The notes below the pieces were generated by a model. It saw only the letters and a list, made by a program, of their open reading frames with translations, searched no databases and was not told the DNA's origin. DNA of 32,076 nucleotides from contig CAIMRY010000020.1 of the NCBI GenBank assembly GCA_903843965.1, positions 1 through 32,076 of the forward strand. Direction: 5' to 3'. This document shows, piece by piece, positions 5,384-7,587 of this stretch (position 1 is its first letter; the number at the start of each line of letters is the position of its first letter). A program made the position numbers and the translations under genes. The DNA is from an uncultured delta proteobacterium. GTDB taxonomy: Bacteria > Desulfobacterota > Desulfovibrionia > Desulfovibrionales > Desulfovibrionaceae.

Positions 5384-5549
5384 GCGTACCATGCCTTGGA
5401 CCTCCTTCTGTCCTGCCACTCGGCCTGCCACCCGGTCTGATCATCAAGTCTGATATCCAGAATCAACATTGCCGATTCATTAACTCTTTGCGCCAAAGCC
5501 CCCGACCTGATAGTGTGCAGATCCATCACCCAGGCAAATGGAGGCAGGC

Positions 5550-6302
5550 ATGGACAATTTACAGGCAGACCTGTGCTCCGACATCGAGGAGCAGGTGCGC
5601 GAGCGGTTCCGCAACGTGGCCAAGAGCCCGCGCGGGCACTTCGCCTATCCCACGGGACGCGAGGGGCTGCTGGCCCTGGGCTACGCCGGGGAGGAGCTTT
5701 CGGCCTTGCCAGCGCCAGTGCAGGAATGCTTTTGCGGCGTGGGCAACCCCTTTTCCGCTGGGCTGCCCGAAGCAGGCGGCCAGGTGCTCGACGTGGGCTG
5801 TGGGGCCGGAGTGGACGCCCTGGTGGCCGCGTACCACATCGGCCAAACAGGCTGCGTGACCGGACTGGAGTTCTCCCCGGAGATGCTGGAGCTGGCGCAG
5901 GCCAACGCGGCCCTGGCCGATTGCGGCAACGTGCGCTTCCTGCCCGGCGCTGCGCAGGCGCTGCCCTTTGCCGACGAAAGCTTTGACCTTGTCCTCTCAA
6001 ACGGTGTGTACAACCTCGTGCTGCGCAAGCGCCAGGCCCTGTCCGAGGCCTTCCGGGTGCTGCGGCCCGGCGGGCGGCTCCAGGTGGCGGACCAGATCCT
6101 GGAGGACGCCGCGCCGCTTCCCGTCAGCCAACCGGCGGCCCTGTCCTGGGCCGGCTGACGCGACGGCGCTGTTCCGGGAAAGGTTTTCCTGGAGATGATG
6201 GGGTCCGCCGGGTTTGTCGAGGCCCGGTTGCTGCGCCGCACCGGCTTCAAGAGTTCGGCTGCGACCGTGGGCGCAGTCTTCAGCGCGCGCAAGCCGGGCT
6301 GA
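5550..6302 (+). CDS. ArsM-like SAM methyltransferase, probable selenoprotein (Sec203)
   Basis: Reading through an in-frame TGA at 6156-6158 gives a 250-residue class I SAM-dependent methyltransferase resembling arsenite methyltransferases. Visible motifs are CGVGNPFS, the SAM-binding VLDVGCGAGVDALVA, GLEFSPEMLELA, ALPFADESFDLVLSNGVYNL and FRVLRPGGRLQVADQI. The TGA falls in WAG-(TGA)-RDGAVP, exactly where relatives carry the Cys of the W-x-G-C-x-x-G-A motif, the last As-binding Cys of ArsM. The 47 codons after it stay in frame and keep family sequence (FLEMMGSAGFVEARLL, TGFKSSAATVGAVFSARKPG) up to a real TGA. A SECIS-like hairpin follows. The ArsM Cys in SNCV is Gly here (SNGV), so the substrate need not be arsenite. 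The ATG at 5550 has ggagg 5 nt upstream and is preferred over 5538. Alternative: a nonsense-truncated gene. Confidence 0.78.
6156..6192 (+). promoter_or_regulatory. Candidate bacterial SECIS element after UGA
   Basis: Fifteen nt after the TGA, ccgggaaa (6174-6181) pairs with tttcctgg (6185-6192) through eight pairs, one of them G-T, leaving a GGU apical loop. The loop G is 24 nt downstream of the UGA. Established bacterial SECIS elements sit inside the coding sequence with a short stem and a G-bearing (often GGU) loop about 16-37 nt from the UGA, so geometry and loop fit. Confidence 0.7.
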
Positions 6303-6449
6303 ACCACCTCGTATTTCAGCCCCCAAGGCCTCAGGCTTGACTTGCGCTCCCTGTCTGTTCACTATACGTAGCATTAGAATTGGTTGGGTTTTTTGTCCGG
6401 GCCCTGGCACGGCATTGCGTCCCATCGCCTACAAGCGGAGTGAAAGAGC

Positions 6450-7587
6450 ATGGAGCAGAAGCTGGGCAGAGTGCTGGTCGTGGACGACGAGCCGATCAAT
6501 GTGGCCGTGCTGTGCGGCATTTTGAGCCACGCCGGATACGAGGTGCTGAGCGCCGGGAACGGCCCCGCCGCCATGGCCATGGCCACGACCGAACGCCCGG
6601 ACATGATCCTGCTCGACGTGATGATGCCGGGCGAGTCGGGCTTCGAGGTCTGCGAAAAGTTGAAGAAAGATCCCGCCACCGGCCCATGTGCCCATCATCT
6701 TCGTCACCAGCCTGTCGGATGTCTCGCAGAAGCTCACCGGCTTGGAGCTCGGCGCGGTGGACTACATCACCAAGCCCTTCTTCGAGCCGGAGGTTGTGGC
6801 CCGCGTGCGCTCGCACATGGATTTCCAGCGTCGCCAGGGCACCATCATCCACGAGCAGGCCAATCGATTGGGGCAGATCCAGGCGGCCCAGCGGGCGCTG
6901 CTCGTGCGGCCGGAACAGCTGCCCGGGGCGCGCTTCGCCGTGCATTTCGTGCCCGTGCTGGAGGCCGGAGGCGACTTCTACGAGGTGGTGGACTTCGACC
7001 AGGGCCGGGCAGCCTATTTCCTGGCCGATGTGAGCGGGCACGACCTGGGCGCGTCCTTCATCACCTCCTCGCTCAAGGCGTTGTTCCACCAGCACGCCGC
7101 GCCAAGCCAGCACCCGGCGGACACCCTGAAGGCCATGAACCGCATCCTGCGCGCCATCACCCCGGAGGAGCTCTATCTCACGGCCGTGTATCTGTACGTC
7201 GACCGGGCGCGCGGGAACTATGCCCTGAGCGTGGCCGCGCACCCGCCCGTGCTGGCCTGCCTGGCCGGGGCGCCGCCCGTGTTCCTCGATCTTCCTGGCA
7301 CGCCCCTGGGGCTCTTCGACGAGGTGGATTTCGCCAGCATTGAGGGCAGCATTCTGCCGGGCGACCGTTTCTACCTCTACACCGACGGCCTGGCCGATGT
7401 GGTCGGCGGGGCCGATGGAATGAGCGGCGGCATGGCGACCTCGCCCGCGTTCCGCGCAAAGCTGACCGAGGCCTGCCAGCGGACAGGGAACATGCCGCTG
7501 CCCGATTCCGTGCGGAGCATCACCACCGAGCTTGTTGGCGCGTCCACCCCTGGCGATGATGTCGTGCTCCTCGGGGTGGAGGTATGA
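6450..7587 (+). CDS. Response regulator with PP2C/SpoIIE phosphatase domain (frameshifted)
   Basis: Two overlapping reading frames together encode one protein of about 378 residues: an N-terminal receiver domain (LVVDDEPIN, phospho-acceptor Asp56 in LLDVMMPGESG, conserved Lys in DYITKPF) and a C-terminal SpoIIE/PP2C serine phosphatase (GGDFYEVVDF, FLADVSGHDLGASF, FYLYTDGLADV). The frame breaks at about 6681. Removing one G from accgg restores DPATAHVPIIFVTS, the normal receiver sequence, so a single-base insertion (real or a sequencing error) is the simplest reading. The family (RsbU/RsbP type) dephosphorylates STAS antagonists when the receiver is phosphorylated. Its stop overlaps the next gene by 4 bp (ATGA), and the downstream gene supplies the kinase and a STAS domain, so the substrate is probably encoded next door. 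Confidence 0.8.

Follow-up and report, generated by a model that had tools for sequence, protein, structure and literature searches.

An ArsM-fold methyltransferase gene of a Desulfovibrionaceae bacterium with an almost certain selenocysteine and two of three arsenic-ligand cysteines absent

Haft and Tolstoy (mSystems, 2025) have reportedly defined the families of ArsM fusion selenoproteins. In the available part of the review PMC13188914, an arsenite methyltransferase selenoprotein with the motif UxxG is listed together with three fusion families, and a 2007 paper is cited for it. ArsM with selenocysteine (Sec) is also listed in the available parts of PMC2398784, from ocean metagenomes, and of PMC9312934, while the accessible text of PMC5029168 gives a count of 41 genes from 39 organisms; the deep-Sep paper (PMC12013277) has no mention of it in the accessible part of its main text. 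Since Sec-ArsM is a known selenoprotein family, the gene described here is a stand-alone example of a kind already known, and the listing in PMC13188914 means that the candidate Sec-containing ArsM-like enzyme proposed in a first-pass annotation of this DNA represents no new kind. The published arsenite methyltransferase selenoprotein (PRK11873/NF008823) has Sec in the same UxxG motif. The subfamily to which the present protein belongs lacks the other two arsenic-ligand cysteines, and the NF008823 model gives the protein only 167.5 bits (cut-off 263). A literature search, with most subscription papers outside its reach, found no paper linking Sec at this position with absence of the other ligands, and no description of the resulting active-site change.

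Cysteine requirements have been reported for several enzymes of this type. In human AS3MT, Cys156 and Cys206 are required in both methylation steps and Cys61 in the first, with arsenite held by three cysteines, methylarsenite by two, and dimethylarsenite by one (PMC3877260, available part). For Thermus ArsM, arsenite methylation with a single cysteine is reported, and two histidines may fill the other places (PMC8649762, available part). An ArsM phylogeny, according to the accessible text of PMC5552862, kept only proteins with at least three of the four cysteines 44, 72, 174, and 224.

The window analyzed here is a whole contig of 32,076 nucleotides (CAIMRY010000020.1, C20) from a genome of 3.56 Mb in 46 contigs with a completeness of 100%. 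Positions 5538-6302 of the forward strand form a single frame of 254 residues once the TGA at 6156-6158 is translated as Sec, which is residue 207 counted from the ATG at 5538 and residue 203 counted from the ATG at 5550; the latter is the likelier start because a GGAGG precedes it (Table 1). The Sec codon lies in the motif SWAG-U-RDGA, and 47 sense codons separate it from the stop TGA at 6300-6302; without recoding, ordinary ORF calling ends at 6158, leaving 206 amino acids from 5538. The coordinates and motif in the first-pass annotation were correct, as were its 47 codons continuing the C-terminus of the family and its expectation that an automatic caller would stop at 206 codons from 5538. 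A second Sec at the final TGA was also considered and rejected, and that codon is read as a stop, because the next stop is TAA or TAG in 23 of 42 relatives. A scan for promoters and terminators found nothing.

Table 1. Features of the methyltransferase gene, in positions of the window.
Feature	Position	Strand	Basis or remark
Gene for stand-alone SAM-dependent methyltransferase selenoprotein of the ArsM fold	5550-6302	+	250 residues including Sec; alternative start ATG 5538
GGAGG ribosome-binding site, 5 nt upstream of ATG 5550	5540-5544	+	Read directly
TGA codon for Sec, aligned with Cys224 of CmArsM	6156-6158	+	Read-through frame and alignments
SECIS-like hairpin, 10-bp stem 6172-6181/6185-6194 with apical loop GGU 6182-6184	6172-6194	+	Folding, covariation
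Val68 codon at the position of arsenic ligand Cys72 of CmArsM	5739-5741	+	Alignment to CmArsM
Gly156 codon at the position of arsenic ligand Cys174 of CmArsM	6003-6005	+	Alignment to CmArsM
Cys66 codon, two residues before the Cys72 position	5733-5735	+	Cys66 present in 30 of 42 subfamily rows

All strong Pfam matches of the protein are methyltransferase domains. The AlphaFold2 model, with Cys in place of Sec, has a mean pLDDT of 90.7, and the solved structures nearest to the predicted fold are CrArsM (32% identity), CmArsM (28% identity), and human AS3MT. Fold and SAM domain are alike in these proteins, but the window protein is shorter than its solved relatives and has Val in place of Cys72 and Gly in place of Cys174 of CmArsM. 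From the Pfam, AlphaFold2, and structural matches, an ArsM fold with use of SAM is strongly supported. The best NCBIfam matches, which extend over the whole methyltransferase part, are to double or triple selenoproteins: ArsM_AhpD_UU (NF041537; 285.9 bits, cut-off 510), ArsM_DUF2284_UU (NF041536; 267.8 bits, cut-off 575), and MTase_UXPK_star (NF047649; 247.8 bits, cut-off 460). Scores are thus under the curated cut-offs, and the protein differs from these families in ending after its single methyltransferase domain, with one Sec and no AhpD domain, DUF2284, or Sec-bearing tail. All 33 subfamily members scanned match these three models and PRK11873. A scan of genome contigs returned 79 loci at 30-46% identity, mostly covering the SAM domain only (about residues 74-190), and these loci were set aside.

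For comparison across the class, the protein was searched in 348 genomes, the best seven or fewer candidates per genome were scored, and matches were listed at E <= 1e-20; among the matches listed, 108 of the 348 genomes are represented. The 134 match rows comprise the window and 132 fetched regions, with two rows in one region (L170), giving 133 sequences that were sorted by their residues in the three columns where ArsM has its arsenic ligands. Among the matches listed, 85 rows are canonical ArsM, in which each of these columns is Cys, including the one where the window protein has Sec (85 of 85). Another five rows (L163, L164, L165, L171, and L172) keep the first two ligand cysteines and have TGA at the third (C,C,U). 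The remaining 43 listed rows have no Cys at the column of CmArsM Cys174; TGA stands at the Sec column in 42, while the last is the copy in L170, split into two frames, whose classified piece has no letter at the Sec column and whose other piece has TGA. Those 42 rows, from 41 genomes, are called the subfamily below.

Within the subfamily, all 42 rows have TGA at the Sec column and none has TAA or TAG. By contrast, all three codons serve as the next stop downstream, with TAA in 12 rows, TAG in 11, and TGA in 19, and the distance from the Sec column to that stop is 45-57 codons in 40 rows, the exceptions being L162 (191 codons) and L146 (6 codons). Nine relatives in the same genus have the gene, and in the eight compared the codons after the TGA retain 63-85% amino acid identity. 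Across 17 relatives, differences after the TGA number 200, 205, and 406 at codon positions 1, 2, and 3; third positions are the commonest, and the same pattern precedes the TGA (970, 978, and 1686). In nine further relatives that lack both other ligand cysteines, from Chelatococcus and eight haloarchaeal plasmid records, the Sec column has Cys, a direct Sec/Cys pair. The UGA therefore lies within a conserved frame and homologues have Cys at its position, two features of bacterial selenoproteins.

If the TGA were a true stop, the gene would be a truncated or decaying methyltransferase, and both the result of ordinary ORF calling and the relative L146 are in keeping with this. The first-pass annotation had named decay downstream of the same TGA in close relatives as evidence against Sec, and this was seen once, in L146, where a 66% complete assembly keeps the TGA ahead of decayed sequence with a new stop; in the other relatives compared, the downstream codons are conserved. 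With TGA invariant in the column, changes downstream falling mostly at third positions, and covariation in the hairpin described below, a true stop is very improbable. A sequencing or assembly error at 6156-6158 could be proposed because the neighboring gene at 6450-7587 looks frameshifted and the assembly may not be spotless there. The identical TGA nevertheless recurs in other genomes at the level of genus, family, order, and phylum and in a complete plasmid record of Ilyobacter polytropus, making such an error exceedingly improbable. The apparent stop codon thus almost certainly encodes Sec, judging from the sequences compared, and gives a full-length protein.

The hairpin downstream of the TGA has an 8-bp core (6174-6181/6185-6192) closed by the GGU loop, and it begins 15 nt after the TGA, as had been noted at first pass. 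Bacterial SECIS elements carry G in the apical loop. A 33-nt stretch containing the hairpin folds better than shuffled sequences (z -2.8; 3 of 200 shuffles as good), but a 48-nt stretch is unremarkable (z -1.2; 22 of 200), so that the case depends mainly on comparative evidence. Covariation was counted in 37 of the 47 TGA-bearing rows, omitting L151, L153, L154, and L157, which have a different local hairpin without the 8-bp core, the five C,C,U rows, and L146, which is broken after the TGA. The 8-bp stem and a GGN loop are common to the 37 aligned rows, with a mismatch at the loop-closing pair in two and at the outermost pair in two. Paired cells (98.5% versus 88.4 in shuffles), cells changed on both sides (25 versus a mean of 7.7), and the covariation score (0.312 versus 0.141) all have values that none of 500 shuffles reached. 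The other two of the five measures, pairs with two-sided change (3 versus 2.2; reached by 115 of 500 shuffles) and pair types (7 versus 7.7), are not above shuffles because only three pairs covary. Sliding the partner strand by 1-3 columns lowers pairing to 22-68%, and a null with the protein kept constant and synonymous codons chosen at random gives 5.8 of 8 pairs, compared to an observed mean of 7.9. Among the omitted rows, possible stems of 7-8 bp with loops starting GG occur in L164, L165, L171, and L172, a possible 6-bp stem with a CGTGC loop in L151, L153, and L154, and stems of at most 5 bp in L157 and L163. An Rfam scan of 5400-6500 matched no family. The gene thus has a SECIS-like hairpin just 3' of the UGA, with G in the apical loop and with compensatory changes in relatives.

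The genome also has the machinery for Sec, with selC (tRNA-Sec; 82.9 bits), SelB (388.8), SelA (567.9), and SelD (319.1) all over their cut-offs. Within the class, selC is found in 40 of 41 genomes with the gene and in 248 of 307 without it, the one genome with the gene but without selC (G084) being 75% complete; because selC is common in the class (288 of 348 genomes), its presence alone says little. Each of the checks suggested at first pass that was followed here, namely Cys or TGA in aligned homologues, a SECIS-like hairpin downstream of 6156, and selA, selB, selC, and selD in the genome, gave the outcome expected if residue 203 is Sec: relatives have Cys, as the conserved Cys of the first-pass annotation implied, the subfamily has TGA, the hairpin covaries, and all four genes are present. 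Comparison leaves Sec insertion at 6156-6158 only marginally short of certain. The selD gene of the genome (L187, G000:C9:74481-75407) itself has one in-frame TGA; Sec-containing SelD is known in other organisms.

While the position of Sec is that of an arsenic ligand, the other two ligands are absent. In the alignment to CmArsM, Sec falls on Cys224, Gly156 on Cys174, and Val68 on Cys72. Of the 42 subfamily rows, 36 have Gly and 6 have Ala in the Cys174 column, compared to Cys in 85 of 85 canonical rows, and the Cys72 column is Val in 36 and Phe in 6; the six Phe rows belong to a single genus that has an insert, making the alignment at this column unsure. The three ligand columns thus read V/F, G/A, U in the subfamily versus C, C, C in canonical ArsM. 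The first-pass name of ArsM-like methyltransferase holds for the fold but not in the sense of an arsenite methylase, since two of the three arsenic-ligand cysteines are missing, and the one name should not be read as the other.

The protein could still be a canonical arsenite methylase that merely carries Sec, with other groups standing in for the two missing thiolates. The ArsM fold with its identity to CmArsM and CrArsM, the name arsenite methyltransferase that NCBIfam gives to two of its three fused forms, and Cys66 near the Cys72 position would all fit, and the missing thiols do not exclude arsenite because Thermus ArsM is reported active with one Cys (PMC8649762, available part). However, the protein lacks equivalents of the Cys156 and Cys61 required in human AS3MT (PMC3877260, available part), His stays below 30% in every column of the 42 subfamily rows, and a C,C,C ArsM paralogue (L184; G000:C43, about 288-1010) is kept in the same genome, so that arsenite methylation may already be covered there. 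A canonical arsenite methylase is therefore a rather unlikely reading. From the three, two, and one cysteines of the AS3MT scheme, a single selenolate would fit a dimethylated or other monodentate substrate, and substrate binding by that selenolate alone has about an even chance of being correct. The chance that arsenic is the natural substrate is somewhat below even.

The search was extended to 395 genomes of the phylum, from which 30 loci were read out of a longer match list; the further matches include some with one TGA. Of these loci, 25 have Sec together with Gly at the Cys174 position and five are canonical; three of the 25 (L261, L262, and L270), the window among them, were already in the class set. 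Several are fusions: L266, L267, L268, and L276 have AhpD with CxxU, L275 has AhpD with CxxC, and L263 and L264 are assigned to the DUF2284 type from their resemblance to the NCBIfam forms. In L269, L277, and L278, the protein has a short tail that ends with a GGTU-like motif or one Sec. The best 10 of 59 plasmid records were also read, namely Ilyobacter and the nine Cys relatives, the latter with the V and G columns and Cys instead of Sec. Ilyobacter polytropus (Fusobacteriota) has the gene on pILYOP01 (L291, 3965-4678), with the two ligand columns occupied by Thr and Ser. Its CDS (WP_013388987.1) is annotated only to the same in-frame TGA while the C-terminus of the family continues beyond, making L291 a probable unannotated selenoprotein. 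The locus is near an IS3 transposase.

A tree of 72 selected rows (quick search, midpoint root), including four of the nine Cys relatives, places 36 Sec rows on one side of a branch with 98% SH-aLRT, with the window and the fused phylum members among them. The ligand difference takes one change on this tree and Sec/Cys at least three. Because the unrooted tree gives no direction, the subfamily is said to lack, rather than to have lost, the arsenic-ligand cysteines. The C,C,U rows make up a group of their own (99) within canonical ArsM; their Sec is therefore probably of independent origin.

Partner proteins are suggested by some of these relatives. The haloarchaeal "methyltransferase domain-containing protein" has 36-40% identity to the window protein and the same V and G columns, but has Cys where the window protein has Sec, and an OsmC gene is directly upstream in seven of eight records (L293, L294, L295, L297, L298, L299, and L300; the last is unannotated, and its OsmC was recognized by eye from likeness to that of L293). 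The eighth has an AhpD-like gene there instead. This pairing with OsmC resembles the fusion to AhpD in other relatives and suggests that the partner is a dithiol or selenol-thiol protein. In L295, merB is found near the OsmC/methyltransferase pair. Among Desulfovibrio-like genomes, no gene neighbor is conserved across most genera, four genera at most sharing a neighbor cluster, with clusters taken from a simple ORF picker that also retains spurious ORFs. An AhpD-domain query of the window genome, run with no positive control, gave no match at E 1e-3. Given these two results, a redox-partner step rests on the relatives.

Taken as a whole, a selenoprotein that is an ArsM-fold methyltransferase holding a soft substrate with a single selenolate is a probable model. 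SelB and Sec-tRNA would decode the UGA as Sec, guided by the hairpin directly downstream, and translation would terminate at 6300-6302 to give a SAM-dependent methyltransferase that stands alone and has the ArsM/AS3MT fold. Sec would occupy the place of the substrate-binding Cys224 of ArsM, and its selenolate may bind one soft acceptor atom next to SAM and present it for methyl transfer. The acceptor could be a trivalent methylated arsenical, some other metalloid or metal species, or a different soft nucleophile; ArsM holds inorganic arsenite with two further thiolates, which are missing here. In relatives, a fused or neighboring dithiol or selenol-thiol protein of the AhpD/OsmC type probably provides reducing power or a further ligand. 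A more specific version can be offered tentatively: the subfamily may contain no arsenite methylase but a one-chalcogenolate methyltransferase, with Sec alone (Cys in haloarchaea) binding a monodentate soft substrate, peroxidase-like AhpD/OsmC-type partners reducing the oxidized product or recycling a selenenyl state, and Sec fixed in anaerobic bacteria.

Ordinary annotation can truncate such genes, as for WP_013388987.1. If Sec is the only soft ligand left, the subfamily would be a natural test of one selenolate against the three thiolates of ArsM. The label "arsenite methyltransferase" may also be wrong, and would then mislead gene surveys of the arsenic cycle in sulfate-reducing bacteria.

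Some additional observations concern the surroundings of the gene and its canonical relatives. At several loci of the same genus, the gene is preceded by one for a phosphate transporter (a PHO4 match by Pfam in the window) and followed by a response-regulator gene, which looks like plain synteny. The response-regulator/SpoIIE-phosphatase gene at 6450-7587 is split between two frames near 6684-6690, its receiver and phosphatase parts match Pfam in different frames, and L126 and L127 have one ORF of 372 amino acids at its place; the split is an assembly error or a recent pseudogene. In many Desulfovibrio-like genomes (L193, L197, L209, L216, L254, and similar loci), an ArsM-like C,C,C domain lies within an open frame of about 800-1060 amino acids, which apparently encodes a large protein of several domains.
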